Shown piece after piece: positions 3,134 to 64,000 of a DNA stretch of 64,000 bases. Each line of letters starts with the position of its first letter. Positions within the stretch are counted from its first letter, which is position 1. The translations under genes were made by a program, and so were the position numbers. Below the pieces are notes generated by a model. It made no database searches. It was not told the origin of the DNA and saw nothing but the letters and a program-made list of their open reading frames with translations. Source of the stretch: Clytia hemisphaerica (taxonomy: Eukaryota; Cnidaria; Hydrozoa; Leptothecata; Clytiidae); NCBI GenBank assembly GCA_902728285.1, contig CACVBU010001294.1, positions 1,302,001 to 1,366,000 of the forward strand, in the 5' to 3' direction.

Positions 3134-3491
3134 ATTTGACAGCGGTTTTCGTCACATCCTCCACTTGAGCCTCGGTTGCCGTCTGGAGATGAAATTTTTG
3201 CACGGACTAAAAGATCCTAATAACGGTTGAAAACATAGCCAATCAAATTTTGTTATTCTTTTACTGGTCACACTTTCTTAGAGAAAGCGCAACTTTCGAA
3301 ATTTGGTTTTTATTTTAGTAAGTGAGGACAGCGCTAAATTCGAATTTTCTACTGTAAAAAATGTGAGTCCAATATTGGACTCACAGCTCGAACCCGTCTT
3401 GTGTACATCAAATTATAAAAAAACACACGACGGGTCTCCTGTCTAGGTGAAACGTGACAGTAAGTGTTAGTTTATATGTTTTCTCACGTTT
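3134..3491 (-). other. Non-coding gap inside the Penelope-like element
   Basis: This lies between the stop of the RT ORF and the endonuclease ORF. No frame continues the RT C-terminus into the endonuclease, and the expected thumb-to-endonuclease linker is not recognisable. A deletion, insertion or replacement within the element is the simplest explanation. Confidence 0.5.
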
Positions 3492-5372
3492 TTACTGACG
3501 TAAAAGATCCTTGCGCTTTTGTCTACGCGCATCCAGAACCTTAGTTCTAACTAACTTCTGATCATACCCACGTTTAATCAGCCATGTCTCCAGTTCGTTG
3601 CAACGTAAGTCGAATTCATGGGGCTCCGAGCAGATGCGATGAAGTCTAAGAGCCTGACTGCACGGAATCGAAGTCTTGGAGTGAATGGCATGACAGGACG
3701 AAGCATCCAGATACTGGTGAGTATCCGTTGGCTTCACGTAGAGATCAGTAGCTAGTTTATCCCCCTTGCGATAAACCCTTACGACCAAAAAATTGATGGA
3801 TGTATTAGAGTATTCGAAAGTAAATTTGACACTCTTATGGGTTTCGTCGCTATTTAAGTGGTCAAAGAAAAGTTTCAGAGATTCTTCACCGTGCTGCCAG
3901 AGAAAGAAGATGTCATCGATATATCTCCACCAGACTAAAGGTTTAAGATTGTGTGGTGCCGAATCAAAAATCCTTTCTTCAAGGTCACTCATGAAGAGAG
4001 TGGCATAGTTTGGTGCCATTTTAGTACCAATCGCTTTACCTTGCTTTTGTTTAAAAACCTCGCTGTTGTGTTCAAAGATGTTATTTTCTAGAACACATTT
4101 CGAAAGCTCCAAAAGACTGCTGGTAAAGATTGTTTTTTCATCCCTACTATCAAAAGCACGGCGCAGCGATTCTAGACCATCCTCATGGGGGATACTAGGA
4201 TAGAGACCAACTACGTCTGCAGTGCATAAAATGGTATCAGATTGTAAATTAGGAAGAGAGGAAAAGTTTTTCAAAAAATCATTTGTGTCTTTTACAAATG
4301 ATTTGACCTGTTTAGCTAGAGGCTTTAGATGAAAATCAAGAAATGCCGAAATATTCTCCGTATAATACGAAGAATTTGAAATGACAGGTCTCCCGGGAAC
4401 CCTGTAAAGTCGTTTGTGGATTTTTGGTAATAAATAAAAACGACCAATCTTAGGGTTTTCAACCAGAAAATAATCCAAAGTATCTCTAGGAATGTCACCT
4501 CTTTTATCAATAGAGTCAATGCAAGACTTGACAACCTCAATGAGCGGACTAACAGCATCCCCACTGAGCTTCTCATACACACTCTCATCTCCCAACTGCG
4601 ACTCAGCTTCCCGAAGATAATCCTCCCGATCCCAAACCACAATACACGAACCCTTGTCAGCCCCCTTGATGATAATTGAAGTGTCATTCCGTAATGAATC
4701 AATAGCTTTCCTTTCCTCCTTAGAAATATTGTGTTCCCTTATTCTAGTGTTAAGATTAAGAATTTCTTCTTCCAAACGACTAAGATACATCTCAATAGCT
4801 GCATCTTGGTTTCTTGGGTTAAAATTCTTAGACCGGTTCGATTTCTTTTTAAACTGATCCGGCACAAAATCACGTTCGTCGTTTCGAAAAAACCACTTCA
4901 ACCGAAGCTTCCTCCCAAAGCGCTCAAGATCGTTTTTAAGAGCAGCTTTGTCAACGAAACGTGGTGTAGGAATGAATTTTAACCCTTTTGAAAGAAGAGA
5001 TATCTCTGCCTCAGAAAGTCCACGTTTAGAAAGATTCAAAACATTCTTAGAAACAAAAACCCCTTGAAGACGCTTATTTTCTTCTTCCCCAACCTCAGAC
5101 GCTACCCCTAATGGCGAGATAACATGGCTAAAATCCCCATTATTTTCTAAATTTTCTGAGTTAGAATTATCAAAATTATTGTTCATGATGTTCGTTAAAT
5201 TAGTTAAATTATCAATATCAGACGACAAAGTATGTCCATGCTCAGCCAGATTACTTTTGAAATCAAAACATTTTAAATGATCATCAAACCTTTCCAGTGC
5301 CATTTCCATCCGATCCTCATCATGTTTCAGTAACTTTCTCAATTTCTTTCTTTTCCGTTTGACAATGTACAT
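3492..5372 (-). CDS. Penelope-like reverse transcriptase
   Basis: Copies element RNA into DNA at the chromosomal target. 626 aa, one uninterrupted frame. The N-terminus is basic (KRKRKKLRKLLK). Visible RT motifs in order: GRPVISNSSYYTENISAFLD, then TADVVGLYPSIPHEDGLESL (catalytic Asp motif), KQGKAIGTKMAPNYATLFM, WWRYIDDIFFLWQHG (YIDD catalytic box), then the FTFEYSNTSINFL and TDLYVKPTDTHQYLD motifs typical of Penelope RTs. The ATG lies inside the inverted repeat, which therefore supplies both the start codon and the upstream region. The protein stops right after a basic tail and lacks the fused endonuclease. The Penelope-class assignment is firm; the clade within it is not assigned. Confidence 0.93.
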   Translation of the reverse strand: MYIVKRKRKKLRKLLKHDEDRMEMALERFDDHLKCFDFKSNLAEHGHTLSSDIDNLTNLTNIMNNNFDNSNSENLENNGDFSHVISPLGVASEVGEEENKRLQGVFVSKNVLNLSKRGLSEAEISLLSKGLKFIPTPRFVDKAALKNDLERFGRKLRLKWFFRNDERDFVPDQFKKKSNRSKNFNPRNQDAAIEMYLSRLEEEILNLNTRIREHNISKEERKAIDSLRNDTSIIIKGADKGSCIVVWDREDYLREAESQLGDESVYEKLSGDAVSPLIEVVKSCIDSIDKRGDIPRDTLDYFLVENPKIGRFYLLPKIHKRLYRVPGRPVISNSSYYTENISAFLDFHLKPLAKQVKSFVKDTNDFLKNFSSLPNLQSDTILCTADVVGLYPSIPHEDGLESLRRAFDSRDEKTIFTSSLLELSKCVLENNIFEHNSEVFKQKQGKAIGTKMAPNYATLFMSDLEERIFDSAPHNLKPLVWWRYIDDIFFLWQHGEESLKLFFDHLNSDETHKSVKFTFEYSNTSINFLVVRVYRKGDKLATDLYVKPTDTHQYLDASSCHAIHSKTSIPCSQALRLHRICSEPHEFDLRCNELETWLIKRGYDQKLVRTKVLDARRQKRKDLLRQ

Positions 5373-5531
5373 AGTTATAGCTTTTAAATTGTTTTTATTA
5401 TTTACGTTTTTGTGAAATTTCTAGCTTCCATTATAAAAAGGATATCATTTTTTGTTGAGCTATATGCTGATGAAGTCACGAAAGATGACGAAAATTTCTA
5501 TATAAGCAGTCGCTTCATTTTTTCTGTTCTA
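5366..5531 (+). repeat. Inverted terminal repeat (pseudo-LTR), right copy
   Basis: Inverted copy of 2155-2321. It overlaps the first codons of the RT ORF and carries the plus-strand hammerhead-like motif at 5459-5507. It lies upstream of the RT in element orientation, so it may include the promoter; no promoter motif was identified. Confidence 0.8.
5459..5507 (+). ncRNA. Hammerhead-ribozyme-like motif, second copy
   Basis: Same core as at 2182-2230 in opposite orientation: GCTATAT, CTGATGA, stem II GTCA/TGAC, GAAA, TATAAGC. The cleavage region reads ATTTCTA instead of ATTTGTA, so this copy may be mutated at the triplet. Relative to the RT ORF it is antisense. Confidence 0.55.
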
Positions 5532-7428: not shown

Positions 7429-8133
7429 TTAATAACAGATTTTGCAGGTACAATTTTCACCAGACCAGCTTTGGAGTTTAATTTTGAAAAGCTTTGGAGA
7501 ATCGGCAGACTTTATATCAGCAAGTAGGCAATTCCAAAGAAGACTACCCCGAAAAACTAAAGTGTTAAGCCCATATGTTTGGGTTCTGCCTACATTGGGT
7601 AAGATGATTTTCCTATCTCCAGATCGAAGCACATAAGGTGACTTCGTTATATTATACATATCCCAGAGAAAACTTGGGCAATCTTTCCAAATAATACTAT
7701 AAACTGCTCGTAATAGAAATCTTAAATTCTTAACATATATAGAAACACTTGCATCCTTTTCTAACAAAGTTTTAAAATTAGAGTTGAAGTCGAGGTAGAT
7801 TGCACACAATGCCCTTGTATGGACTTTATTGATAAGGGTGTCATTCCCCTTACAGCCATACATCCAGATCAAAGGACAGTAATTAAAAGTTGATAAGATA
7901 TATGCTTCAGAAAGTGTTTTGGCGCTGCTAATATTCAAAAAATGTCTCATACGAAATAAGGCCTTGACTTTATTGGATGCAGATTTACATAATGTTCTAA
8001 CATGTTCAGAAAAATTCAATTTACAATCAATTTTAATACCTAGAAGTTTAACACAATTTTTAGGTTCTAAATTGATATTCCCAATTTTAAGTTTAATATG
8101 ATCAATATTTCCTACGTTTCCAAGAAGCATCAA
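7429..8133 (-). pseudogene. LINE ORF2 C-terminal region
   Basis: Post-RT region of the LINE protein. Visible features: KLLGIKIDCKLNFSEHV (thumb-type motif), KVKALFRMRHFL, LSEAYILSTFNYCPLIWMYG and the LINE tail VFRGSLLWNCLLADIK followed by a terminal Cys cluster. It is in a different frame from the RT part at 8166-8792, so a frameshift lies near 8133-8166. A related tail is found at 11305-11559. Confidence 0.85.
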
Positions 8134-8165
8134 TTGGAATTGTTCTGGGTTGGCGGCAATGGAAT

Positions 8166-9374
8166 TTAATCTGAACCAAGTAAATTCACTGTTTCTTGTT
8201 TTAAAGATTGTAAAACTTGAAGAAAGTTTTTTGCAAAAGTGGATAGGGTATTATCGTCAGCAAAATTACAGAGTGATGCTTCTTCTACAAATTCAATTAA
8301 ATCATTAATAAATATATTAAAAAGCAAAGGTCCCATAATGGAGCCTTGTGGAACACCAGTTTTTAGTAAAAGGAAATTGCTAAAATTATTTCCAACTTTT
8401 ACTCTTTGATATCTATTGGATAAATAATCTATCAACAAGCAAAAACTTTCAAGACTAACTCTGTATGCCGCACATTTGGCTATTATTAGATCATGCGGTA
8501 GACAGTCAAAGGCTTTAGATAAATCCATTAGGATTGTACCAACTACATTTCCACCGTCTAATTTTTTTTGCCAAGAACTCAGAAGTTGCATGAGAGCATG
8601 TTGTGTTGAATGTTTTTTCCGAAAAAAAAAAAAAAAGAATAAGGATAAATGTGAAAAATCCGTGCTTAGCTCGAAATCCACAAAGTAAATTACAAAAGAT
8701 GTTATCGAAATATGAAGTAAGTTGATTCGAAAGAATTTTTTCAAAGAGTTTAGAAATAGCTGGTAAAATACTAATGGGTCTGAAATCCCCAACGTTCTGG
8801 CTATCTTCAGTTTTCGGAACAGGAGTTATCTCAGCAAGTTTTAACTTGTCAGGAAAAAAGCTATTTTCAATGGAAAGATTTATAAGATTAGTTATAAATG
8901 GGCATATAACAGTAACGGAAGATTTTAAAATTTTGTTAGATATACTACCACTAGTCAATTTTGAACAATTCAACTTCAATATCTTCTCATAGACCTCACT
9001 TGAAGTAACCTTTTTGAATTCGAACGGACCATGGGTATTTTTTGATAAGATTTTTAGGATACTTGGGTGTTCAGCATATTTCAAAATAGACTTAGCAACT
9101 GACATGGTGGTGTCATTATCTGAGGTAGGATATCCATGATTCCATTCAAAGAGGTTAAGAGGCTTTGTGACTTATTGAAGTAGTTATTGAATAGTTCAGA
9201 AATCTCATTCTCATCTTGAGTAATAGAATCATCGGCACCATTTATGACAATCCGAGCGTCAGAAACACCTTTATTTGAAAAGAAAGGTTTACAGAAATTC
9301 CAAAAGTCTTTAGGATGACCTTTGGCGTTTTGTATTGCTTGTCGAAAATGCTGCTTTTTGGCTCTCTTATTCAA
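8166..9374 (-). pseudogene. LINE reverse transcriptase, frameshifted
   Basis: Three overlapping frames together give the RT: 9081-9374 (KAKGHPKDFWNFCKPFF, pre-RT), 8515-9105 (KLAEITPVPKTEDSQNVGDF and RPISILPAISKLFEKIL) and 8166-8792 (GTILMDLSKAFDCLPHDLI, TGVPQGSIMGPLLFNIFIND, FADDNTLS catalytic box). The frame changes near 9090-9105 and around 8600-8680. In the latter place a T-rich insertion of about 54 nt separates GFRAKH from a second FRKKHSTQHAL, disrupting the conserved GFR...H motif. Confidence 0.88.
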
Positions 9375-10303
9375 TTTGACAACAAAATTTCTTTGTTTCC
9401 TATAAACATCGTAATCCTGAGAATTCTTTTACCATTTTTATAATAAATATTCCAAAGCCTGGATCGTTCCATGACTGTTTTTTTAATGATTTTATTCATG
9501 TGGGGCTTTTCCTTTCTCCGAATGGTTTTCATTCTCAGTGGCGCATGTTTATCTAAAACGGTGGTAAAAATAGACTCAAACATATCATAATCCATCATTT
9601 CACTATGAAAAGAGTTCAATTTGTCGGATAATTCTTGCAAAAAATCCCTCTCGCAAAACTTTTTGTAAGATCTATAATGAACTTCTTTAGGAGGAAGTTT
9701 CAAGAACTTTGATTTTAAAACAGTATATATCAATCTGTGGTAATCACTAATACCAGTATCCAAATATCCTGTCATCTGTAGGCTATGTTTTTGATTTGAC
9801 AGAATTAAATCAATAGTAGTTCCATCTTCAGCTTTAAAGCAAATCTTAAATTTAATATGGTTATATAACTCATGGGAATCAATAAAGTTTGAGATTCCGT
9901 GAGGTTCAGAGTTAAGATCACCAAGGACAATGAATCTTTCTACACTGTAAAAATCTAGAGTTTTAGAGATCCACGACAAAAAATAATCAAGACTTCGCTT
10001 AGGATTGTGGTAAATAGAGATTACTACCCATTTACAAGATTTTAGTGAGATTTCTAAAGGAATAATTTCGATATCCTCTGGTAAGCTGAATATTTTTAGT
10101 CTCCTCGCTGACAAAGAGGGCTTTGTAAAAACCATAAGACCACCACTTTTATTAGAAATATCAAGTCTAAAAGGCGGATTATAACCCTCAACTTTAAATT
10201 GGTTTTTCGGTAGTTTTGTTTCAGCGATACACAGGATGTCAAATTTATTTTCAGTAAAACCAAGCAGATCATCTAACTTATTTCTCACAGAATTGATATT
10301 CAT
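9371..10303 (-). pseudogene. LINE apurinic-type endonuclease domain
   Basis: Nicks target DNA for target-primed reverse transcription. Motifs in order: NINSVRNKLDDLL, DILCIAETKL (catalytic Glu), GGLMVFTK, VVISIYHNPKRS, FIVLGDLNSEPHG (GDLN), TTIDLILSN and TGISDYHRLIY (SDYH). These are the exonuclease-endonuclease-phosphatase signature residues. The frame continues upstream through PNNVLLGY before a frameshift links it to the N-terminal fragment at 10309-10509. The core domain is intact, although the element as a whole is broken. Confidence 0.9.
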
Positions 10304-10308
10304 ATATC

Positions 10309-10509
10309 CTAGCAGGACATTATTTGGATACTTTTCTTTGATTTTTCTAATTTTTTCAACTCCAAAGGGTAGTTCAAGAGTACCTTCAGCACATCAGTAG
10401 AGATCAACCAATTTTGACTTGAGATTTTTGGCAAATTTTTTCTTACCATCTTTGGAAAAATGTAGTCCTTTCTTTCCAAGATCTTTGGATGTGATATTTT
10501 TGTTGTCAA
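10309..10509 (-). pseudogene. LINE N-terminal fragment
   Basis: About 66 residues with KLEKSKK and LERKDYIFPKMV segments just upstream of the endonuclease but in another frame. The join lies near 10330-10345 in a T-rich stretch. It is probably the region preceding the endonuclease of the same LINE protein. The 5' limit of the element is unclear. Confidence 0.55.
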
Positions 10510-11704: not shown

Positions 11705-12040
11705 ACCAATCAAATCGATTATGAAATCAAAGCAAACATTGATTCCGAACAAGACCCCTAGATATTTTTCACAAAGGTTTCTAGACGACTAAAATTTTTC
11801 CCTCCATTACCTCTTGCTTTATGTCTGCTATGTCTGGGGACCCACAATTCGGGACACTGAAGTGGGACTCTGAATTCTGCAAACCAGGACTTTGAAATTC
11901 GGCAAACCGGGACCCTGAACTTACAGATATTTACATATCTCTGTGGTTGTTCTTTCGAACTTCGTGTATTTATTTTTTTGTGATCACAAATAAAGGTCTT
12001 TTCCAGAAAAAAAAATCGAATATGAGGGAGGGGCAGAAGC

Positions 12041-12540
12041 AGCCAACGACAAAGAAATCGTAAATACCTATCCGTTCTTATTTGCTAGCTGGAAGGATTT
12101 TTCGATCTTAGAACAGATACCCCGATTCCAAGGGCACCAGTCTTCTACTCAGAACAGATCGCGTTTTTCCAGCCAAGAGAACAGATGCAATTTTATGAGA
12201 AAAAAACAGAGTTCATAAAATAAATTTCCTGTAAATTTCTGTTCTTATTAGCCAGCTGGAAATATTTTCAATCCTAGAACAGGCATGAAAATTAGTTTTT
12301 TTGAGAATATCTGTTCTACTTGCCAGCTAGAAATTTTTGATTTTTAGAACAGATCCCGCTAATTTCCAGGTGGAACGCTGTCAGAACAGATCACAGAAAA
12401 GTAAAGGCTAGTGATGCGGGGCTTTTAGAACAGATAACAAATTTCCAAAAAATCGGCCAGATTTTATGTAAGAACAGATCAATAATTTCCAGGTAGACAA
12501 ATTTCTAGTTTTTCTTAGAACAGATATTTTATGGCTGCTT
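12041..12540 (+). repeat. AGAACAGAT / CCAGCTGG array, copy 1
   Basis: AGAACAGAT alternates with variants of TTTCCAG(CTGG) roughly every 40-60 bp. It begins AGAAGCAGCCAACGAC, close to the AGAAGCAGCCACCGAC of the array starting near 55151, with which it also shares TTTGCTAGCTGGAAGGATTT. It is a diverged member of the same transposon family as 43490-44106 and 55151-55800. Confidence 0.75.
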
Positions 12541-13312: not shown

Positions 13313-16300
13313 GTAAAATAAAATTTTTCGTGGTGTATAGGACTAAAACTTTCAGGAGATTTACTTCATGCAGAAAAATTCAAATACTCATTTTCACTTT
13401 TTAAATGCATGAATTTTCAAATACATATAATACGAGAAGGGTGAATAAAAGAAAGTTAATTGTTTAATTATGTGAAGGTTTGAAGAAGTATTTTAACTAT
13501 TAAGCATACCTAACGTATTAAACAAAATATATACAGCTAAACCCACTCTGTAAATGTGGAACCAGAGAGGAATGCGTTTAAAATTACTTTGGTATACATA
13601 AGTGAAGTGAGGATTGGTGTAAAAACACTAGTCAACAGGTCAATACACGTACATACAAAAAAAAATTTAAAATGAAAAATATATAAAACAGTACGACCAA
13701 GCAGTTTCTGAAGCATTCTTAATTTTTTTTGCTGGAGATTATCAGAGATTATAAAACCTTTTTGGGGTGTAAAATGCTTTTCAAGAATTCAAGGTGTCAA
13801 AAATTCACTCTAACTTATGTGCTGATCAATTGATTTATGTGGCAGAATTAGACAAGGTATGTGGTATTAAATTCGCTTCTGCACTTATTGCGAACAAAAA
13901 TCAGAATTCTTACCAAAGACTTCTTCAGGTACTTAAAATTAGAATCCTGAACGTCACTGGACAAAATTTTGACCCACAGGCAATTGTTGTTGATTTCGAG
14001 GGTGCTCTAGTTGGTGCTATTATTGAAATCGAATTTCCAAATTCTGAACTCTTTGGGTGCTATTTTCACTTCAATAAAGCACTTTGGAAACATGTCATGC
14101 AACTTGGGTTGGTTCAAGGTTTTTATGGTGACGCAAACCTGAAAGTTAATTAAAAAACTGATGTCAATTGGATTTCTCCCTCTTAACCAAGTGCTACCTT
14201 CCCAAACCCTCTTAAGAGCTAGAGGGGGCACCGGGAGGCTCATCAGGAGATTTCCAAACCTGGCTAATTTTTTGACGTATTTTGAAGATACATGGGTCAA
14301 TGATAATGCACGGTTTCACAGGAGAATGTGGAACGTTAACGCCCATGGAATACCGTACAAACAATCATGTTTAATCATTCCACAACAGATGGAATGCAGA
14401 TGTTGGGGTTGCTCATCCTAATCTTTGGGTCTTCATTAGGAAAATGAAAAATAATCAAGTGGTTACTGAAAACACTGCGGCTTCTGTTCAGCTTGGTAGA
14501 CCAGCTCCCAGGAGAGCGAGGAAGTGGCGTTTATTAGAAGCGAGGATTGATGTGTTGAAAATCAGGCTAGCAAACAACAATATCACTATTGATCAGTTCT
14601 GGCGATCGATTCGGCATACAATTGCACAATTTTATAAACAGACTAGATATCTTTTGTACTTTATAATTTTTTGATATTTTCAATTCAACATGTTATTGAG
14701 ATAACATTGTCACAGCATGACTTTAGCTTCTTCCTCAGTTATGGGTTTGTACAAAAAAGGTGCTATTTCATATCCTATTAGAAATAAAGGCTGTTTTTAA
14801 ATATATCTGTTTAACCTTCCTGTGATAACTAGACTTGTTTTTACATTGACAAGAAAAGATTTGTTATTTAACTATTTTTTTTTTTTTTATTATCAATTGG
14901 CTACTTTTGTGAAATGCATACCTTGTACCATACCATGCTTTTATATTATAAAAGTATAATAACTATAAAGCATGCTTAAATCATACTTGAGGGGTTTCAA
15001 AAACAAACACCAAAGAAGTATACTAAAAGTATGCTTTCATCACAAGTTGATTATCACTGAAAAGCATGCTTCATATATGTACTAGAAGTATGCTTGCAGT
15101 ATGCTTTATACATGCTTTCAGTAAGCTTTATATGTACCTACTGCTGAAGTATACTTATGGCATGAAAAAGCATGCTTTAAGTCAGTCAGGGAATATTAGC
15201 AAGTTTTGTCTTCGCGCGAGTCTTTAATATCCCGCAGAAGCGGTATACATAATATACTTCAAACAAAAAGAGTAAAAACTGCTCCAGTATAAAAGAATGA
15301 AAAAATAAAAACAGTTTATGTACGACACGTTTCGACGTTTTAGACACGACACATCTAATTTATTAAAATATTAAATTTGTCCCAATAGGACGTAGTAGGA
15401 AAAAGATAATTTTTATTATAAAAGGAAAATTTAACCCTAAATAAAAGAAACACATAACGACCTACACCCACCTCTCTTACTTGGATTTAGGAAAACAAAG
15501 CACAAACAAAAACGGTACTAAACTGATTAAAGGACCTCTGTAGGTGTCAAACAAACAAGGAAAAAACTCTATACTCTATACATATATACTATACACTCCA
15601 TCATAATCCAGCAAAATGTCAATAATTGGCTCTAAAAAGAAACTTTTGCATGGGTGAAATTTTCAAGAGTCATAGAAAAATAATATTTGAAAAATTCTAT
15701 CCAGCGCGATTTCCATTTTCTTCTTTTCTTCGTCTTAATAAAGAACTGAAAAATGTCACGTGACATGAAAGAAAAAATGTCCATGCGAAGGAGTTACCGT
15801 CAGGTTGCCTAATCCCGACCACCCCTATCTAATCCTGACCCCCATCTAATCTGCAGAAAATATTAATCTTTACTTCATAAACTTGATTACATAATCATAA
15901 ACAAGACTAATCTGAACCAATCCAATACAAATAACATAAAAACAAACCAAAGGAAAAATATTGGTAGAAAAGTAGTGAAAACACGTCATACAGATGTAGA
16001 CAAATGATAACAAATTTTACAAACTCTATTACACATTTTGTTTCTGCCCATGCTGTCATAAAAAAGGGATTATTAAACCAAAATTTGGGTAAATTGTTTG
16101 TTTTAGAGGGGGGTCAGGATTAGATAGGGGTGGTCGGGATCAGGCAACCTGACGGTACATGACGTTGGAATAGTCGTAAAAGTCGTAAAAGTCATAATTA
16201 CCAATAATTTGCTTGCGTTCTATCTGGGGAATAAATTTGTTTTTAAATATGACTTGAACTATAGACTCATTAAATGTGTGAATTTATGGTATAGTGTTTT

Positions 16301-43489: not shown

Positions 43490-44106
43490 TCCATCCCATT
43501 TCTCTGAGCGAACTAAAGAAACAAGTCAGCTGGAAAAAAGTGGCCTCTTCTACTGAAGATTAGGACCAGCTGGAAAAATATGATTTGTTCTACTGAAGAT
43601 TGGGACTAGCTGGGAAAATATGATCTGTTCTTATGAAAAAATAGTTTGATATCCAAAAAATAGGGTGTCTAAGAATTTCCTATCTGTTCTGAGGGAATTT
43701 CAGTAAAAAACTCTTTGGGATCTGTTCTTTTCCTTCTGAATGTGGTTGCCCGGAGTGGCAGCTGAAAATTCTCCATCTATGTAGTGCATCTGGAAATTAA
43801 GTTTCTGTTCTTAAAAGTCCTTCAATGTCGAGCTGGAATTTAGCGATCTGTTCTTATAAGATTTTGTCAGCCCTGGTAAATAAGAACAGTTAAGATAAGA
43901 GAACAGTTAACTCGCATAAAATCAATCGCCTGGTAATTTCGTACCTGTTCCGAAAGTTGTTTTACATCCTAGCTGGAAAAATATAACTGTTCTGAAGTAA
44001 AAATTTCTCCCCAGGAAAACGAGGGACTTTTCTTAATTTCGGGAAAATCCTTCCAGCTGGCAAATCAGTACAGATATTTGCAAATTTTAGGTCGGTGGCT
44101 GCTTCT
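43490..44106 (-). repeat. AGAACAGAT / CCAGCTGG array, copy 2
   Basis: Reverse-complement copy of 55151-55800, highly similar over about 600 bp. On the minus strand it reads alternating AACAGAT and TTTCCAGC(TGG) words. It directly abuts the truncated transposase frame at 44105, so it is inferred to be the subterminal region of that transposon. Confidence 0.85.
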
Positions 44107-54360: not shown

Positions 54361-55150
54361 ACTCCTGATTATATTTTAATGTTTTAATTTTTAAAGCATT
54401 AAAGCTTTATAAGTGCATGACATGATCTTTATGTGGGGGCATTTAGTGAAAGCTATGACTAGTATTATTTTCAGTGGGGACAAAAATTCGAGTAAACTTT
54501 TCAACCGGGGACGAAATTTTAACCAATTTTTCCTGTACTTAGAACTTTTCCCGGTGGGTCTTTGAGAGGGGTGTAGAATACGATTTCTAGAAATACGACA
54601 ACACTAATGAAACTCCTCAGAAGCCTTTTTTTTAAAAGCAATTAACTTTTTTTGAGGTGGAAAAATAAAAGAATTGGAAAATTAGGGAAAAAAAGGCGCA
54701 AAAAGACGATGTCTACAAAACCCGACGAAAAATATTGTTTGAGAAATCAACGCTTGAATACCGTCTTATTAATTTCGCTTAGCGAAGTATTACGATAGCC
54801 TTTCGCGGTGGGCGGCGGCGGTGTCCTCGGAAAAAAAATTAGAAAACGAAAGTATTTAATACGGTGGATGAACTCACTAAGTTTAATTTAAACTTGCACG
54901 CTCCGTTTAACCACGGCAATTTTCGCGGTTTTTTTTAAGATTACATCATATCTTTCATATTAGCTCATACTAGTTTGGTATTGTGGAGGTAATGAGATGA
55001 TCAGGTTCATTTTGTCTATTGTATCATTAGCTCCACAGTCTGACGCGTACGGCACCATACTTCTGGAAGAAAAGGGAAGGCAAGGAGGAATTTCAATTTT
55101 TAGAAGCGTTTGCAGGTTTGCAGCCATCGATTTTTAGCAAATTCCAGAAG

Positions 55151-55800
55151 CAGCCACCGACCTAAAATTTGCAAATATCTGTTCTGATTTGCTAGCTGGA
55201 AGGATTTCCACGAAATTAAGAACAGTTCCTCGTTTTCCAGGGGAGAAATTTTTACTTCAGAACAGTTATATTTTTCCAGCTAAGAGATAAAAAAACTTTC
55301 AGAACAGATACGAAATTACCAGGCGATTGATTTTACGCGAGTTAACTGTTCTTATCTACCAGGGCTGACAAAATCTTATAAGAACAGATCGCTAAATTCC
55401 AGCCTGACATTGAAGGACTTTTAAGAACAGAAACTTAATTTCCAGCTAACAGTTCGAACAGATCCACAATTTCCAGATGTTTTGTAGAACAGATGGAGAA
55501 TTTTCAGCTGCTCTCCAGGCAACCACATTCAGGACTTTTTTGAAATTCCCTCAGAACAGATAGGAAATTCTTAGACACATTATTTATAAATATAAGATAT
55601 CAAACTATTTTTTCATAAGAACAGAACATATTTTTCCAGCTGGTCCCAATCTTCAGTAGAACAGATCATATTTTTCCAGCTGGTCCCAATCTCCAGTAGA
55701 ACAGACCATATTTTTCCAGCTGGTCCCTATCTTCAGTAGAACAGACCACTTTTTTCCAGCAGACTTTTTTCTTTAGTTCGCTAAGAACAGACCGCCATAT
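55151..55800 (+). repeat. AGAACAGAT / CCAGCTGG array, copy 3
   Basis: Opens with AGAAGCAGCCACCGACCTAA, the same sequence that abuts the transposase stop at 44106 in the opposite orientation, and follows that copy for about 600 bp. No transposase is attached here, so this looks like an internally deleted or solo copy of the same family. Confidence 0.85.
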
Positions 55801-56391
55801 CCAGCTGGAACGTACCTTCAGAACAGATATTTTGAAGTCCCCCTTCGGTGGATGCTTTCGAAATTCCTTGTGTTTACACTTCTTCTCAAAGCAAAAATTA
55901 TTAACTAAGAAATAGTAAGTATAGAGTTTCAACTTTGCTTTTCCAGTTCCACATAGAGTTATTTTTCTAGTGGATCTGTTTAAAGCACCTTTTTCGCCTC
56001 TTCACCTAAAAAGTGATTGAGGCATCTTTTCTTTTTTTTTTGCCACTTTTTTTCAGATTCATTCACTGCACTGAATCTGATTGTGGTTTTTTTTCCCGCC
56101 CTTCAGATTCAAGGTCGAGACTCACCTGTGAATCTGATTGCGGCAACCCGTGGCCAGGACAGGTGTGGATTCTGTGCCTGCGACCGATCGAGCTTGTGCG
56201 TATCGACAGCTCATAAAGAATTCAACTGCATTGTCAGTTATCAAATACATAAAGCTGCATTGTCATTAAGTACTAGTATATATTTAATTTATCCTCTCAC
56301 AAGAATATTTTATTTTACCAGATATTCTTTGTCATATATTTAGTTAGAGTTAGTTTTTCTATCTGTGACTGTACTTTGTACTTAATTGAAG

Positions 56392-59300
56392 ATGATATCT
56401 GTTGCATTATATCGTGCACGCATAGGAAGTTTTGCTTTTACAGCTCAGAAAAACGTTAAATGTGTCGCTAAATCTATTATTGTTGGTTCAGACCTTTCCA
56501 ATAATGCATTCTCAAAACTTTTTAAACCTGTACGTTTCATAGCACTTTTTACCCTCCTATGTTTTGCAATTCCAAAATCGTTTGAGCTAACAGAGCTTTA
56601 CACACCTCTTGATTTTCTCAATCTTTCAAGAAATGGAATTTTCGTTCAATATCCCAATGTAGCGGGAGATCCAAACCTTACTTTTTTCAAAGTTAATTAC
56701 ACACTCTTATTATCAGGCGATGTAGAACTTAACCCAGGCCCAACTGTTCAAGGTTCATTTCACCAGGGCAACAGTAAATTTGGCAAGACGGCAGGTATAC
56801 AATGTTCCTCAAATTGTTTTTTTGCTATTTGCTATGCTCAGTTGAGAAAATTATCGCTATGGAAGACTCATGATTTGGATTATGTTTTAGATCAAGGTGA
56901 TTTGAATTTCAAAAAGTTGGGAATCACAGGACAGTCTCCATTTGTTGAAGAGTTTTCTAAGTCAATTGACATAGGAGGTAGCACTTGTGCACTGAATTTC
57001 AACATTTTTGAAGGCTATTTTGAGACTGGTAATATTTCAGTAAATTTTGTTCAGGAGGAACTCTTATTACAACATTCTGGTGCAGTTTTAGTGATAGCTG
57101 GAAATTGCTTAGCTGTGATGCATTATAACAAAAATTACTTTTTTTTTGACTCACATAGCAGAGACTCCGAAGGCCATCAAGTTGAAGGCAGTATTGGAAC
57201 TTCAGTTCTTTTAAAGTTTGACAACTTACAAGAAATTAAACAGTATATAAGATCTGAGTATAAGAACGTAAATCTTTTCAATATCATTTATCTCAAAACT
57301 GATTTTCATGATCAGGAAAGTATAAAAAATACTGTATCAAGGCAAGTATCACGCAGACAAAAAAATTGTTCACATAAGAGATCAGTTGAAAAGATTAAAG
57401 GTACTGATCAATATAAAGATTTATTGGAAAAACAAAACGCTTCTAAGAAAAGATCACGTGAAAAAATCCAAGGCACGGATAAGCATGAACAGGTAAAGAA
57501 GAACAAACGTAAGCATCGGGAATTAAATAAAGGATCAGAAAAACATGATCAAGAAAAAGAACTAAAACGTAAGCATCGGGAATTAAATAAAGGATCAGAA
57601 AAACATGATCAAGAAAAAGAACGAAAACGTAAGCATTGGGAATTAAATAAAGGATCAGAAAAACATGATCAAGAAAAAGAACTAAAACGTAGACATCGGG
57701 AATTAAATAAAGGATCAGAAAAACATAAGAAAGAAAAAGAAAAAAAGCGTAGAGTCTACAAAGCTAACAAGAAACTTAATGTAGGAAAAAGGGTTGACAA
57801 CTTCAGGCAGAAAAAACAAGAGGGCCCGTCCTTCATCTGTGTAATGTGTAACCGCTGTATGTATAAAAAATCTGTGTTTGGTTTTGATGAACAAAAATTC
57901 TCATTGATCAACTTTGAAGAAATAGAAAATTTTAATCCTGTAACCTCGTTTGATGGTAATTTCTACGTATGCACAACCTGTCATAGAAAATTAATGAAGG
58001 GAGAAATCCCATGCCAGTCTGTTACTAACAAGCTTCAAATTTTTGATCTCCCAGATAATCTAAATGATATACGAAAACTGGAAAGAATTTTAGTGGCTCA
58101 AAGAATTTTATTTTCTAAAGTCATGATCATGCGTAAAGGTGAATTCCCCAAATTACAAGGTGCAATATGCAATGTTCCCATTGAAACACCAGGTGTATGC
58201 AAAGTACTTCCTAGAGGAAGTGATAGTAGTGGTGTAATAAATGTTGAATTAAAAAGAAAGATATCCTACAAAAACCCTGTTATTTCGCAGCAAGTAAGAC
58301 GACAAAAAGTTTTTGAAACTTTGGAATTTTTAGTGAATAATAATCCTTTGTATCATGATATACATATTGATATGTCAATCATCGACCAAGTAACTAATGA
58401 TGAATATGTTGAAAGGGTTTTATCAAATAATGATTCCATATCAAACGCTTCTTCCAATGATATAAGATTTGTAGATGATACAACAGTTACTTTAATTAAG
58501 CCTTTTGAAGAGCAATTAGAGAATGAATTTGATTCTGATGATCCACTCAGTGCGTATCGGACACCAACATGTGAAACAGTTATTGTATCAGAAGTGCCAA
58601 ACATTATTTTAGATGATGAAAATGCAATTTTAGCTCCAGGTGAAGGTCAAACCCCCAATTCATTAACACAAGATGAGTTCTGTGAAGAGCTAGCCCATCC
58701 TCATCTTTTTCCTACTGGGAAATTTGGTTATAACGTAGAGCGAGATATAAAATTGTCGCCAACAAAGTACTTTAATCAGCGTCTTTTAAATTACACTCAA
58801 AAGTTTGCTTCGGATTCAGATTACATTTTTTTTGCTCACAAAACTTTACTACAGCTTAATCTTAGAAGTAAGATCAATATCGCAATGAGAATTTCAAATT
58901 CCAACTTGACTGCAGGATTATTAGCAAATAATTTTAATGATACAATTCAAAATTGCGTAGCATCTGATAATGCATACAAGTTTATGAGTACTATAAAAGG
59001 AACCCCTGCATACTGGCAACATATGTTATCTGATGTTCTTGCAATGGTTAAACAACTTGGTGTCCCAACATACTTTATGACTCTCTCTTGTGCAGATTTA
59101 CGGTGGGAGGAATTTGTTACCATTATCAGACAATTAAGCGGGGATGCTGATACTGATCATGAACTTCTTGATTACCAATCTAGATGTGCCCTACTTAATA
59201 GCAATCCTATTGTGCTTGTGCGTCAATATCAATATAGAAAAGAGTTGTTTTTCAAAGAGATTATAATGGATGGCCAACTTGGAAAAATTACATACTATGC

Positions 59301-60414
59301 TCTCAGAGTAGAATTTACTTTCAGGGGTAGCCCACATGATCATTGTTTGCTTTGGGCTAAAGATGTCCCAAAACTTGAAGATGGAAAAAGAAAGTATATT
59401 GAACACATAGATAGTGTTATTTCTGCTAATGTTCCTGATAGAGAAGAAAGTCCTGAGTTATGGAATTTAGTCACTAAATATCAAATACACTCCCATTCTA
59501 GAACGTGTAGTAAATATCGCAAAAATGAATGCCGATTTAAATTTGGAAAACTTTTCTGCAAGCGTACTATTTTGTCTGAACCGCTTCCTGAAGGGTTACC
59601 TGAAACTGAAAAACATGATATTTTGGTTGCTAGAAATAATGTGATACAAACTGTTCAGGAATTTATAGATACAAATTTGCATCCTAAAAAGAGAAACATT
59701 TTGGATCCTGATAAGCCTGAGTATATTGAAATTGGCTCTATTGATACAATTTTGTCTTCATTAGGGTTAAATTATGAAACATATGAGTATTACTTATCAA
59801 TCTCACCAGACAAAGATCAGCATTTGTTTCTAAAACGTGACCCATATTCTTGTTTTGTCAACAATTATTTTGCAGAAGGCCTCCTAGCATGGGAGGCCAA
59901 CATCGATATCCAACCAGTGTTTAATGCATACAAGGCAGTTACATACATGTGTGCCTATTTTTCAAAAAGTGAAGATAAGTGTTCAACTGCAATGCAAGAA
60001 GCATTAAAACAGGCCAAAGATTCAAATGACAGTCAGTTTGAGAAAATGTCTAAAATTGCCAAAGTTTACAACTCTAATAGAGAATGCTCAATCCAGGAAG
60101 CAGTTTACTTAACAATGCCTGAACTGTGGCTTAGAAAATGCTTTCCTGCTATTTCATTCGTTAACACTAACTTACCTGATCAAAGGTACAGAATTTTCAA
60201 ATCAAAAGAAGAAATTGAGGAATTGCCTGAGGATTCTGATGATCTTTTCAAACGAAATATGTTAAACAGATATATTGACCGCCCAAACACAGGGCAATTC
60301 AATACTATGTGTTATGCCACATTCTGTGCAAACTATACATTAGACACAAAAAAAAATACAAATGATGAAAATGATTGGCAGCCTACTGTACTAGATGATC
60401 AACAAGTGCAGTGA
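56392..60414 (+). CDS. Helentron polyprotein part 1: leader-2A-protease-like-Rep
   Basis: First in-frame ATG at 56392, seven bases after an in-frame TAA. Residues (ATG = 1): hydrophobic leader 45-60 (RFIALFTLLCFAIPKSF); 2A motif LLLSGDVELNPGP with skip point Gly116/Pro117; protease-like region about 118-310 with GIQCSSN (Cys138) and FDSHSRD (Asp253, His255); Lys-rich 20-aa repeats about 373-453; Cys clusters CVMCNRC and CTTCH about 480-540, then NKLQIFDLPDNLNDIRKLER; Helitron N-terminal domain; HUH at 982-984 (GSPHDHCLLW); Rep tyrosines at 1185 and 1189 (VTYMCAYFSK). Rep would nick and rejoin DNA during rolling-circle transposition. The stop at 60412-60414 is an apparent frameshift, not the natural end. 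Confidence 0.9.
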   Translation: MISVALYRARIGSFAFTAQKNVKCVAKSIIVGSDLSNNAFSKLFKPVRFIALFTLLCFAIPKSFELTELYTPLDFLNLSRNGIFVQYPNVAGDPNLTFFKVNYTLLLSGDVELNPGPTVQGSFHQGNSKFGKTAGIQCSSNCFFAICYAQLRKLSLWKTHDLDYVLDQGDLNFKKLGITGQSPFVEEFSKSIDIGGSTCALNFNIFEGYFETGNISVNFVQEELLLQHSGAVLVIAGNCLAVMHYNKNYFFFDSHSRDSEGHQVEGSIGTSVLLKFDNLQEIKQYIRSEYKNVNLFNIIYLKTDFHDQESIKNTVSRQVSRRQKNCSHKRSVEKIKGTDQYKDLLEKQNASKKRSREKIQGTDKHEQVKKNKRKHRELNKGSEKHDQEKELKRKHRELNKGSEKHDQEKERKRKHWELNKGSEKHDQEKELKRRHRELNKGSEKHKKEKEKKRRVYKANKKLNVGKRVDNFRQKKQEGPSFICVMCNRCMYKKSVFGFDEQKFSLINFEEIENFNPVTSFDGNFYVCTTCHRKLMKGEIPCQSVTNKLQIFDLPDNLNDIRKLERILVAQRILFSKVMIMRKGEFPKLQGAICNVPIETPGVCKVLPRGSDSSGVINVELKRKISYKNPVISQQVRRQKVFETLEFLVNNNPLYHDIHIDMSIIDQVTNDEYVERVLSNNDSISNASSNDIRFVDDTTVTLIKPFEEQLENEFDSDDPLSAYRTPTCETVIVSEVPNIILDDENAILAPGEGQTPNSLTQDEFCEELAHPHLFPTGKFGYNVERDIKLSPTKYFNQRLLNYTQKFASDSDYIFFAHKTLLQLNLRSKINIAMRISNSNLTAGLLANNFNDTIQNCVASDNAYKFMSTIKGTPAYWQHMLSDVLAMVKQLGVPTYFMTLSCADLRWEEFVTIIRQLSGDADTDHELLDYQSRCALLNSNPIVLVRQYQYRKELFFKEIIMDGQLGKITYYALRVEFTFRGSPHDHCLLWAKDVPKLEDGKRKYIEHIDSVISANVPDREESPELWNLVTKYQIHSHSRTCSKYRKNECRFKFGKLFCKRTILSEPLPEGLPETEKHDILVARNNVIQTVQEFIDTNLHPKKRNILDPDKPEYIEIGSIDTILSSLGLNYETYEYYLSISPDKDQHLFLKRDPYSCFVNNYFAEGLLAWEANIDIQPVFNAYKAVTYMCAYFSKSEDKCSTAMQEALKQAKDSNDSQFEKMSKIAKVYNSNRECSIQEAVYLTMPELWLRKCFPAISFVNTNLPDQRYRIFKSKEEIEELPEDSDDLFKRNMLNRYIDRPNTGQFNTMCYATFCANYTLDTKKNTNDENDWQPTVLDDQQVQ
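56692..56742 (+). other. 2A ribosome-skipping sequence
   Basis: Encodes YTLLLSGDVELNPGP, a full match to the 2A consensus D(V/I)ExNPGP with the upstream LLxxGD context. It should release the first ~116 residues, a hydrophobic leader peptide, and start a new protein at Pro117. 2A sites are established in picornaviruses and in several invertebrate LINEs and NLR genes; in a Helentron it is unusual. Confidence 0.9.
56743..57325 (+). other. Cysteine-protease-like domain (herpes tegument/C76-like) in Helentron
   Basis: Immediately after the 2A site: a Gly-Gln-Cys box (AGIQCSSNCFFAICYA), a hydrophobic strand (GAVLVIAGNCLAVMHYN) and a Asp-x-His box (YFFFDSHSRDSEG). Cys followed by D-x-H is the catalytic arrangement of the tegument-type deubiquitinases and some related cysteine proteases. 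The role is inferred: possible deubiquitination or protein processing. An OTU-like fold remains an alternative. Confidence 0.6.
57510..57749 (+). repeat. 60 bp in-frame tandem repeat in the Helentron
   Basis: Four units of exactly 60 bp (57510, 57570, 57630, 57690) encode K(H/R)RELNKGSEKHDQEKELKR, a highly charged, probably coiled-coil or disordered segment. Older, more degenerate 20-residue units precede it (REKIQGTDKHEQ), so the array has been expanding in frame. Confidence 0.9.
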
Positions 60415-61499
60415 ATCATCAAGAACCCCAAACACTTCCAAAATCAGCCAAATTACTCAACAGTAAGGAAAAACTTAAGCTTCGTAAGGTTCCAAAAGTT
60501 TTGAGGTACTACACTCCTAACAAAAACAAACATCCAGAAAAATTTTCCCACCATATTCTAATGTTGTTTTACCCATTTAGATCAGAAGAGAATGATTTGA
60601 AACTTGATGGTTCATATGTGTTGAAGCTCAATTTAGATGAAGTCAATGCAGTTGTTAACGAGAACAAGCAAATTTTTGAACCTGATGGTCATCTTGTTGA
60701 TTTAGTACTTCAAAACTATCGCAATGACCTTATGCATAATCAAGATGCCTTTGCTCAACAAGAAAATGATGAAGTGCAAGACCTAATGAGCAACTCATCA
60801 GACAGTGAAAATGATGATGAAAGTCATGATATCGAACAAATTTTAGCACCATTTACTCAAACAGTTCATGGCTTGCAAACTGATGACCAAATCAATACCC
60901 ATATAAGATCTTTAAATTCTAAGCAAAGAGATATTTTTGATATAGTACTAAATTGGGGAAAAATGTATGTGCAAAATTCCAAGTCCAATAATCCTGTACT
61001 ACTAGAACCATTGAGAATATTTTTAACAGGTGGTGCGGGCGTAGGAAAATCTCACTTAATTAAATGTATTTACAATTGTTTGTCAAAAGTCCTAGCATAT
61101 AAAAGTGATGAGCTAGAGAAGCCACGTATTATTAAATTGGCCCCAACTGGTATAGCAGCTATCAATATATCTGGCACCACAGTACACACAGGATTGAGTA
61201 TTCCAGTTGGAAAATTCAGAAATATGGCTGACAAACAAAGGACTGCCATTAGAAATAAATTACATCATGTAAAGTTGATAATAATTGATGAAATATCTAT
61301 GATTTCGTCGCAACAGCTTTTGAACATCCATACAAGATTATGTGAAATTTTTGGTGTAAATGACAACACACCATTGCAGGGAAAAGTATCATTGTTTGTG
61401 GAGACCTCTTTCAATTACCTCCAATTTTTCAAAGTCCAGTATTTTCAACTGAGGGACCTATTATTGGTGCATTCAAATTATGGCACCTATTCAAACTAG
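60411..61499 (+). CDS. Helentron part 2: Rep end and Pif1 helicase N-part
   Basis: Continuation of the same protein, one base out of frame with part 1 (open from about 60399). RKVPKVLRYYTPNKNKHPEK and LMLFYPFRSEENDL are the Rep-helicase bridge. The helicase shows Walker A (FLTGGAGVGKSHLI, about 61020-61055), LAPTGIAAINISGTTVHTGL and Walker B (LIIIDEISMIS, about 61275-61300). It unwinds the strand displaced during rolling-circle transposition. After GKV at about 61385 the frame is lost: the next frame gives SIIVCGDLFQLPPIF. The GTG at 60411 is not a plausible start on its own. Confidence 0.88.
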   Translation: MNHQEPQTLPKSAKLLNSKEKLKLRKVPKVLRYYTPNKNKHPEKFSHHILMLFYPFRSEENDLKLDGSYVLKLNLDEVNAVVNENKQIFEPDGHLVDLVLQNYRNDLMHNQDAFAQQENDEVQDLMSNSSDSENDDESHDIEQILAPFTQTVHGLQTDDQINTHIRSLNSKQRDIFDIVLNWGKMYVQNSKSNNPVLLEPLRIFLTGGAGVGKSHLIKCIYNCLSKVLAYKSDELEKPRIIKLAPTGIAAINISGTTVHTGLSIPVGKFRNMADKQRTAIRNKLHHVKLIIIDEISMISSQQLLNIHTRLCEIFGVNDNTPLQGKVSLFVETSFNYLQFFKVQYFQLRDLLLVHSNYGTYSN

Positions 61500-63037
61500 C
61501 TGAATTAGATGAGATTATGCGTCAAAAGGATGACTCTGACTTCATTGATCTCTTGAACAATGTAAGAGTAGGTGAATTGAATAGTAATGATGAAAGTATG
61601 ATTAAATCTAGACTGATAACACGAGAACACCCTGATTATCCAATAGAATCATTGCATTTGTTTGCAGAAAATGCTTCAGTCCATCTTCACAATATTCAAA
61701 GATTAGATACTCTGCCCTCGGAAACAATAAATGTAGAAGCTATGGACGTTTATCCAAGGGATTTTACTGAATCTCAAATTACCAAGGTTAAGAACCTGCC
61801 ACTTAACGATACAGGTGGCTTATCAGTTCTATTTGATTTGAAAATAGGGGCAAGAGTAATGCTAATTAGTAATATTGATATAGAGGATAGGTTGATCAAT
61901 GGTCAACTTGGAACCGTCACTGACGTAAAATTCAGAAACAATAAAGCAGAGCTAATTTATGTTAAACTAGACGATAAGACGGCTGGAATAAAAGCTCAAA
62001 GTAAAGACCAATATGCTAAGGCCACTGAAACTGTTCCCATTGAAAAGAGTGAGGTAAATTTTCCCTTTGACAAAAAAAACCCATACACTTCACCTATCAT
62101 TTCTCGGACACAATTTCCTCTTAAGCTAGCTTATGCTTGTACAGTGCACAAAGTTCAAGGATTGACTTTGGATTCAGTAGTCGTTAGTTTTGACCTTGCA
62201 AGGCAAAGAAAGTTCAATGCTGGTCAAATGTATGTTGCAATGAGCAGAGTGAAAAATTTAAATGGTTTGTACTTTACTGGTCAATATCGACGTAGTGCTT
62301 TTGTCTGTAGTGATAAAGTTAGTGAAGAATACACACGATTGCGTCAGAACAAAGTTGAAAGAGTTGCAGATATTATGAGGTGCAGTTCTAATTTAAATGT
62401 TTGCCTATTGAATGTAAGATCTTTAAAACGACATGCAGTTGATATTCAAAAGGACAGATTTTTGTATGAAAATGATTTGTTATGTCTGACAGAGACACAG
62501 ATGAGTTATGAGCATTCTGAGGAAGACAAACAAAGTATTCATGAAAAGCTTCCTTATTATATTCTTAGTCATAATATTGACCAGCATAAATTCAACAGTG
62601 TTACTGTCTGTCATTCTCCTTCTTTTATTGACATTGATGAGTATGATCATTCATCATGCTTTTCTCTTGTAAAATTTAGAAAAGCTGAATTTACTGAAAA
62701 GGAATTTTGTGTTTTGGTTCTCTATAAAAGTTCAAGAATTCAACGTGATGTGTTCTGTTACAATCTTGCTCAATTTATTGAAAGATACACAATTGATATC
62801 ATTTTAGGAGACTTCAACATGGACGGCTTTGAAATGGAGCATGATCAATTGTTGGCTGACATTCTCCAAGATTATGATTTAGTTCCGAACTTTCCAACAC
62901 ATATCGATGGGAAAATGCTTGATCAAATTTGGACACATAAGGAATTGGTGCACGAGTATGGTATTGAAGTTATTCGTAAATGTGTGAACTTATCCGATCA
63001 TGATGGAATCAAATTATCGCTGACTTTGCTAGCTTAG
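61385..63037 (+). CDS. Helentron part 3: Pif1 helicase C-part and apurinic-type endonuclease
   Basis: Frame opens within the helicase (IIVCGDLFQLPPIFQSPVFS), then ELDEIMRQKDDSDF, LPLNDTGGLSVLFDLKIGAR (linker), LAYACTVHKVQGLTLDSVVV and GQMYVAMSRVKNLNGLYFTG (helicase motifs V and VI). From about 62395 an endonuclease-exonuclease-phosphatase fold follows: LLNVRSLKRH, LLCLTETQM (catalytic Glu), IILGDFNMDGF (GDFN, about 62808-62827) and LSDHDGIKL (SDH, about 62995). Stop TAG 63035-63037. The attached endonuclease defines the Helentron group. Confidence 0.9.
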   Translation, partial: SIIVCGDLFQLPPIFQSPVFSTEGPIIGAFKLWHLFKLAELDEIMRQKDDSDFIDLLNNVRVGELNSNDESMIKSRLITREHPDYPIESLHLFAENASVHLHNIQRLDTLPSETINVEAMDVYPRDFTESQITKVKNLPLNDTGGLSVLFDLKIGARVMLISNIDIEDRLINGQLGTVTDVKFRNNKAELIYVKLDDKTAGIKAQSKDQYAKATETVPIEKSEVNFPFDKKNPYTSPIISRTQFPLKLAYACTVHKVQGLTLDSVVVSFDLARQRKFNAGQMYVAMSRVKNLNGLYFTGQYRRSAFVCSDKVSEEYTRLRQNKVERVADIMRCSSNLNVCLLNVRSLKRHAVDIQKDRFLYENDLLCLTETQMSYEHSEEDKQSIHEKLPYYILSHNIDQHKFNSVTVCHSPSFIDIDEYDHSSCFSLVKFRKAEFTEKEFCVLVLYKSSRIQRDVFCYNLAQFIERYTIDIILGDFNMDGFEMEHDQLLADILQDYDLVPNFPTHIDGKMLDQIWTHKELVHEYGIEVIRKCVNLSDHDGIKLSLTLLA

Positions 63038-64000
63038 AATACCCGTCAGAGGCGATTCCCGGCGGGACAAGGGGGGGGGGGGGGTGGAAACTGGGGTGGT
63101 GGATGATCTCAACTTTCTGATGATTAGTTTTGAGTGGTCAAAATTGCAGGAAGTAAAAAAAATTATCTCAAATAAAAAGGGTATAGTATCCCTTTTCTCC
63201 TATAGCAAATTCTACCTAACTTAAAAATTAATCATCAGAAAATTAGCCAACGATTCAGAAACATTTGCTTACTGTATGTTGTCATAGGTGCTTCTTTATG
63301 AACAGTTTGAAGTGATCAAATGAATTTTTTTGTGATAGACTGAGTAAACTAGGAATACTCTTTAAAGCAATGATGTTATCGAAAATCTGTTAATATGATA
63401 TCAGTACAGGTTTGATTCTGGATAAAATGAACTTTGTAATTAAGGATTGAAGCTTAACTCTGTTGGAAATATGCAATTAAGGTCATCCCACCACCCCGTC
63501 CATTCTTATGTAAGTTTTCTGACGTTTAAAGACTATTCTTAAAAGACATTTATTCTTTGGGGAGGAAGGCTTTTTTTCTGCATTAACCAAAAGGAGGGCT
63601 CTGTTGAATTTGACATTTGCAGATGAAGTTGGGGAGGGTGTGAGAAATGGGTCAAATATGTGTGAGTGTCTTTTATGGATGGTCTATGGTAGAAAAAAAT
63701 CTATAGACAAAGGACAATTAGTTTAAAGATGCCTTTCATTAATTCATTTTTGATTACTATCTCGTCAGGAAACTTACATACCTATGGATATGGCATTTAA
63801 TGTATTATTTTATTTATTGTATTATTTATTTCTATTTTTATATTATTTATTCCTATTTTTTATATTTATCATTTTTCTTCTGTTTTTCATAATTATTAGA
63901 TTTTTTCAAATTATTATATTCAAAACAAAGTAATATTTCTACCATTTTTTAATAGGTTTTTGTTAATTGTTTTATTATTTTCTTGTATTCTTTTTGTTAT
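63038..64000. other. 3' flank of the Helentron, G-run and AT-rich tail
   Basis: Begins with a 14-base G-run (63071-63084) and becomes strongly AT-rich, with TATTATTTATT repeats after 63800. The element's 3' terminus (short hairpin expected) was not located with certainty. Confidence 0.4.

Follow-up and report, generated by a model that had tools for sequence, protein, structure and literature searches.

The 64-kb stretch of Clytia hemisphaerica DNA analysed here (the window) contains a long open frame in which a leader ending in a 2A (StopGo) motif is joined to the proteins of a Helentron, and the unexpected part is that the leader and 2A appear to travel as a unit. Our best explanation, which is probably right as a whole, is that the window holds the 5' half of one member of a multi-copy family of Helentrons (rolling-circle DNA transposons), and that these elements encode a polyprotein with an exchangeable leader-2A at its front, at whose end the ribosome would skip, followed by a viral tegument-like deubiquitinase (VTD) domain, Rep, helicase and endonuclease that the VTD would protect. 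The deubiquitinase part is of a kind already described; a 2A leader in this class of transposon seems to be undescribed, and a predicted ribosome-skipping signal is thereby placed in rolling-circle DNA transposons.

The window element and its VTD domain

The frame (1340 codons at 56392-60414 on the plus strand) has its first Met at 56392, two codons after the stop-to-stop frame opens. Its N-terminus reads MISVALYRARIGSF and the run up to residue 117 reads LLLSGDVELNPGP. The initial annotation had noted a hydrophobic segment, an exact 2A and a domain with GIQC and DSH boxes, all in the frame of Rep, and all of these are seen there (Table 1). The parts of the element lie in the order leader-2A-VTD-linker-Rep-helicase-endonuclease, and the combination that marks a Helentron (Rep, PIF1 helicase and C-terminal AP-type endonuclease) is present across three frames, the two frame changes of this copy both falling in the helicase part. 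A related copy, L009, is a single open frame whose last residues are those at the C-terminus of the window's endonuclease.

Table 1. Features of the Helentron copy in the window (window coordinates)
Feature	Position	Strand	Remarks
40-nt tandem repeats, 5' region of element	55618..55760	+	upstream of frame
Leader-2A cassette, 117 codons	56392..56742	+	MISxxxYRxxIGxF motif, hydrophobic segment, 2A
Hydrophobic segment, residues 43-61	56518..56574	+	mean Kyte-Doolittle 1.76 over 19 residues
2A / StopGo motif GDVELNPGP, residues 109-117	56716..56742	+	predicted skip between Gly116 and Pro117
VTD domain	56755..57309	+	PF04843 and 8ADD matches
VTD residues Gln125, Cys138, Asp253, His255	Cys138 56803-56805; Asp253 57148-57150; His255 57154-57156	+	
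Basic linker	57330..57820	+	partly coded by 60-nt tandem repeats (57505-57741)
DUF6570 domain	57997..58383	+	PF20209, 66.7 bits
Helitron_like_N Rep domain, same frame	58768..59352	+	PF14214, 98.5 bits
HUH box of Rep	about 59332-59343	+	reads PHDH
Helicase N part (PIF1), other frame	60399..61496	+	frame change near 60.4 kb
Helicase C part and AP-type endonuclease (about 62411-63001)	61364..63034	+	second frame change near 61.4 kb

The HUH box of Rep departs from the form PH-hydrophobic-H in the window and in all seven family A and B loci read (L009-L014 and L016, with L015 left out), and decay was dropped as its cause because the same box stands in all seven; elsewhere the box reads PHIH (family C and leaderless copies) or PHAH (L049). 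A search for the subterminal inverted repeats of a Helentron gave no inverted match as long as 11 nt between 54500-56300 and 63037-64000, and the 3' end of the element may lie beyond the window. Stretches related to the 5' region of the element are also present at 43503-44106 on the minus strand (80-91%) and at 12034-12180 on the plus strand (75%); from their sequence these are likely remnants of other Helentron copies.

Residues 117-311 match the Pfam family PF04843 (Herpes_teg_N) with 39.0 bits (cut-off 25; E 8e-10), and the score within the whole frame is 33.8 bits. The best solved relative is 8ADD, a zebrafish Helitron VTD, with E 1.2e-6 for the single sequence and 2.1e-15 for a profile of seven sequences, the next matches being herpesvirus large tegument proteins. 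The GIQC box contains the expected catalytic Cys138 and the DSH box the expected Asp253 and His255; Gln125 sits 13 residues before the Cys, and all four residues are invariant in the seven aligned VTDs. A tegument-type cysteine-protease domain had been proposed for residues 117-310, with PF04843 as the profile to try; with this profile above its curated cut-off, homologues, and a relative of solved structure, the likeness of this part to cysteine proteases at the sequence level points the same way. The OTU family had been named as another candidate, and PF02338 gives no match in the window frames (the database relative P0010 has one). The 2A site and the protease part of the initial annotation are supported, and no evidence was found for its suggestion that the domain processes the polyprotein. 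Scans of viral and prokaryote contigs with the seven-sequence alignment gave 9 and 35 pattern matches, respectively, none of them a relative.

VTD deubiquitinases in Helentrons were described, assayed and, from zebrafish, crystallised (8ADD) by Erven et al. 2022 (PMC9741609); the zebrafish Helitron VTDs cleave K48 and K63 chains, and it was suggested that they protect transposition proteins from the proteasome (PMC9741609). The zebrafish DrT1/DrT2 (PDB 8ADD) resemble the window protein in having the same domain, with Cys and Asp-x-His, in a Rep-helicase-endonuclease element, but here the VTD starts 3-31 residues behind a 2A and a conserved leader; the terms "2A peptide", "2A-like" and "skipping" are absent from the main text of PMC9741609. 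Helentrons with OTU proteases (Thomas et al. 2014, PMC4067079) also combine Rep-helicase, a C-terminal AP endonuclease and an accessory cysteine protease, and differ from the window element in having the OTU where the latter has the VTD. The combination had at first been thought little described; its deubiquitinase in Helentrons was already in print, while no publication pairing a Helitron or Helentron with 2A was found in the literature searched, the claim of novelty being limited to that literature, outside which lies a survey from 2025 of 2A sequences in eukaryotes (Rao, PMC12338488). The available text of a 2026 StopGo paper (PMC12846837) contains neither "Helitron" nor any word starting with "transpos".

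Leaders and 2A motifs in related copies

The D[VI]ExNPGP core lies in frame in the window protein, and about 3e-5 occurrences of this word would be expected by chance in six frames of 64 kb. No NPGP other than that in the GDVELNPGP of the Helentron occurs in any of the six window frames, so a LINE origin of the leader was rejected as a conclusion to be drawn from the window alone. Among nine leader proteins compared (window included), leader identity drops to about 30% and the 2A core varies only at tolerated positions, the forms found being DVELNPGP, DIELNPGP, DVESNPGP and DIEQNPGP only. These leaders start with MIS and share a YR..(I/V)..F motif, and in all nine a hydrophobic segment and then 2A follow (P0012 fits this pattern after an upstream extension, trimmed before the comparison). 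No Pfam match was found for the four leaders scanned and no PDB match for that of the window. A search of a protein collection with the leader gave one match among 37 candidates; it is another Helentron, so this search says little about leaders in other classes of element.

In the C. hemisphaerica assembly (417 Mb, 951 contigs) there are at least 152 VTD matches (150 of 358 candidates scored) and at least 150 leader matches (150 of 229 candidates scored). The whole genome has 349 exact GD(V/I/M)ExNPGP sites and none of the reversed pattern; among the 100 listed of these 349, 39 are at window-type leaders and 11 are at the leader type of locus L060 (below). Twenty copies with an open frame of at least 1983 codons were fetched among the VTD matches listed. 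Twelve of these (L009-L017 and L019-L021) carry a 2A that is read in the same frame as the VTD; the L014 leader is in another frame over its first half, and L015, which holds masked letters, was left out of the family reading and of the 19-row body tree. L009, which belongs to the family of the window (family A), has an open frame of 2160 codons that begins at the leader Met and reaches the end of the endonuclease, and L010 and L021, also with leader and 2A, are open for 2243 and 2341 codons from the leader Met. The remaining eight copies (L018 and L022-L028) have no 2A: in L022 and L026 the first Met is just before the VTD, L028 has a stop inside the VTD, and in the other five the VTD is preceded by an open stretch rich in repeats. 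In these five (L018, L023-L025 and L027) the stretch consists of in-frame NLLNLL-type repeats, which may be a 5' untranslated repeat or an alternative leucine-rich leader.

Three protein searches gave 13 database relatives (P0002-P0014), and an exact 2A precedes the VTD in eight of them (P0003-P0008, P0011 and P0012) and is absent from P0002, P0009, P0010, P0013 and P0014. The linkage of 2A, protease and Rep for which the initial annotation would have searched other genomes therefore recurs, in these relatives and in the copies of the own genome. A DUF6570 tree of 12 rows groups the window with P0002-P0008 (100/99) and places P0009, P0010, P0013 and P0014 outside; the VTD tree (14 rows), whose deep order is poorly resolved, needs three changes of 2A label. 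P0002 is the closest database protein to the window in the body tree; its deposited gene model has no 2A.

Possible roles of the leader and the VTD

From what is known of 2A biology, the ribosome would make a 116-residue leader with a hydrophobic segment, skip one peptide bond at NPG/P, and go on to make a VTD-Rep-helicase-endonuclease product that starts at Pro117. If the suggestion of Erven et al. applies, the VTD would strip ubiquitin (perhaps NEDD8) in cis off the Rep polyprotein, or off host factors, and the transposition protein would in consequence survive. Our best guess for the leader, a speculative one, is that it is a signal-anchor-like segment which takes only the unskipped product, or the free leader, to membranes. 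The leader may have the membrane or secretory role that the initial annotation gave it. In the window protein this segment ends 55 residues ahead of the skip point, and in leaders of the P0003 and P0007 types it abuts the 2A, so that the former would have left the ribosome at the time of the skip and the latter would still be in the tunnel. This difference in position makes it conceivable, if speculative, that the two types target differently.

A precedent exists in sea urchin NLR genes, whose 2A leaders have signal-sequence activity (SpNLR2A; Roulston et al. 2016, PMC4981915, which also names 2A in non-LTR retrotransposons). By analogy the Helentron leader could be a dual-targeting switch, a signal when 2A fails and discarded when 2A works, that divides VTD-Rep between membranes and the cytosol or nucleus. 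We consider this possible but rather doubtful. The sea urchin leader, like the one here, is hydrophobic, N-terminal and ends in D[VI]ExNPGP (PMC4981915); the succession of hydrophobic segment and 2A in all nine leader proteins agrees with such a switch, as does the excess of K+R over D+E within the N-terminal 50 residues of all leader-bearing proteins but P0012, where these 50 belong to the upstream extension. On the other hand, the sea urchin leader belongs to a host gene and is a 26-aa signal that overlaps the 2A (PMC4981915), whereas the leaders here have 72-120 aa and a YRxxIGxF motif and belong to a DNA transposon; that of the window is 117 aa long with its segment at residues 43-61, and in the leaders compared the 19-residue stretch of highest hydrophobicity begins at residue 43-61, away from the N-terminus. 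Moreover, it is hard to see what a Rep protein would do in the secretory pathway.

Protection of the transposition protein by the VTD, as our preferred explanation has it, would require its catalytic residues, and these are not kept everywhere. Eleven loci were fetched among the leaders without a listed VTD match, a subset of such leaders. Five of them (L049, L050 and L054-L056) constitute family E; of the other six, L051-L053 belong to family C and L057 to family F, the 2A of L058 is broken, and L059 ends short of the 2A. Where the catalytic boxes of family E can be read (L049, L050, L055 and L056), the Cys is replaced by Ser and the Asp-x-His lacks at least the His. L049, the only family E copy read at full length, is nonetheless open for 2261 codons, a condition in which this family differs from the zebrafish VTDs and which indicates that catalysis is not universally needed; cis-protection by deubiquitinase activity thus cannot be general. 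From the sequences, this argues that a VTD domain can persist without deubiquitinase activity, and inactive VTDs have been reported from insects (PMC9741609). In family A/B, L016 has lost its DSH box.

Could 2A and VTD then be vestigial, with the element living on Rep, helicase and endonuclease alone? The long frames without leader (8 of 20) and family E would suit this idea, and so would VTD dN/dS values of up to 0.21-0.34 between families A/B and C and of 0.37-0.46 against E where computable, values for which synonymous sites are near saturation. We think it unlikely, since VTD dN/dS is 0.08-0.15 among the A/B families and 0.13 in L018-L026, and since the leader has a dN/dS of 0.14-0.33 between families, which indicates selection on the leader protein. 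An exact 2A is also present at 36 of the 38 leader matches that reach residue 117 (contigs C1-C261), a proportion biased upward in that a match must reach that residue.

Apparent exchange of the leader-2A cassette

The dS and dN/dS values given here are Nei-Gojobori counts for single pairs, and pairs without a motif anchor were left out (leaderless copies and L014 for the leader, L028 for the VTD, and some family C bodies). L009 of family A and L010 of family B align over 5953 bases, starting at the linker and passing the stop, with 97.9% identity, against 69.8% from the leader to the linker. The dS between them is 0.045 in the body, 1.06 in the leader and 1.89 in the VTD, and over the A-B pairs (L009 with L010 and L013) leader dS is 1.06-1.47 with a body dS of 0.045-0.084. 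The join, at which different N-terminal cassettes meet near-identical bodies, falls in the basic linker that is coded by tandem repeats. Differences in dS of 24- and 42-fold between neighbouring parts of one frame are hard to obtain by selection alone and so favour recombination.

The converse relationship is seen between more distant families. Leader dS is 0.53 for A-C (L009-L017), 0.66 for A-E (L009-L049) and 0.71 for C-E (L017-L049), and body dS is 3.1 for A-C and saturated for A-E and C-E; the family B leader (L010) is farther off, with dS 0.96 from C and 1.48 from E. The BLAST block shared by A and C, and likewise the one shared by A and E, opens 3 nt upstream of the ATG and closes 1 nt past NPGP. 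The C-E block includes shared 5' sequence as well and ends 5 nt past NPGP, and other blocks run farther beyond it (33-36 nt for L010-L017 and 176-179 nt for L049-L011), so that in these comparisons the 2A often, though not always, marks the limit.

In a 19-row tree of the body, the family C copies with 2A group with L028 (99/98) and are nested among leaderless copies; the well-supported branches of this tree require the leader state to have changed twice or more. Sequence on either side of the leader that L028 lacks matches between L028 and L017 (88% upstream and 84% from the VTD onward). The direction of change is likely to be a gain by family C rather than repeated loss. Judged from these comparisons, the leader-2A appears to behave as an exchangeable cassette that has been swapped between Helentron families. 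The opposite possibility, that nothing was exchanged and the low dS among A, C and E leaders reflects slower synonymous change under RNA constraint rather than recent transfer, could draw on the noise of dS in so short a leader (117-120 codons) and on the use of single pairs, but is very unlikely given that leader synonymous sites do diverge between A and B, where the bodies have hardly changed, and that the tree needs its changes of leader state.

Exchange would be easily tolerated because the 2A would detach whatever stands in front of it, so that one leader could replace another with no alteration of the enzyme; the 2A thus looks like a recombination-tolerant module boundary. Since the VTD appears to be part of an exchanged unit, joined to a replication body that has hardly changed, and since one family has lost the catalytic residues, any role of the N-terminus towards the host can be examined independently of transposition, and two questions about transposon deubiquitinases are hereby set apart.

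Eight further 2A sites of the genome were read (L060-L067). In L060 an endonuclease match (PF03372, 25.7 bits against a cut-off of 24.5) follows right after NPGP, and the leader starts MGVSLSQYRACIGFF; in L065, whose leader starts MGISLQQYRACVGNF, the 35 residues after NPGP resemble those of L060 by eye and have no Pfam match. Both leaders carry M.[IV]S[IL]..YRAC[IV]G.F, and matches to the L060 leader sit in open frames of up to 1159 codons. We call L060 and L065 LINE-like from the position of this sequence and, for L060 only, from the endonuclease match, the sequence read containing no reverse transcriptase. APE-type LINEs reportedly carry 2A sequences (an account attributed to Odon et al. 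2013), which like those of the Helentrons stand just before the next enzyme; in these LINEs, as in L060 and L065, it is endonuclease-type sequence that follows the 2A and not a VTD.

A profile was built from 13 Helentron leaders trimmed of their 2A end and was scored against each leader and 20,000 of its own shuffles. It gave 11.3 bits for L060, a score reached by 8 of the 20,000 shuffles, and 14.1 bits for L065, reached by none. As a relative of the Helentron leader that of L062 was rejected (5.7 bits, below many shuffles). The likeness of two of the three leaders tested is suggestive of a common origin with the Helentron leader. We tentatively propose, giving it not quite an even chance, that the leader-2A is a mobile module, reaching from ATG to NPGP, which recombination has moved among rolling-circle transposons and, over longer time, LINE-type retrotransposons, the 2A being a neutral junction that lets the downstream enzyme gain or change its leader. 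If true, such a module would parallel in nature the way in which 2A is used in the laboratory.

Among the other sites, L061 is a Helentron to judge from the start of its VTD, the leader of L066 suggests another, and L064 runs into a stop shortly behind its 2A. In the LINE-like L062 the 2A is followed directly by a PHD-like finger (below the Pfam cut-off) and then by an endonuclease match of 25.3 bits, and the LINE-like L063 has a similar finger in the same place; the hydrophobic leaders of these two differ from the Helentron leader. The window itself contains pieces of other elements, namely a GIY-YIG domain adjoining a reverse transcriptase at 2750-5420 on the minus strand, which looks like a Penelope-type element, a broken LINE with pieces of AP endonuclease and reverse transcriptase at 7432-10393 on the minus strand, and a fragment of a MULE transposase at 13773-14150 on the plus strand.
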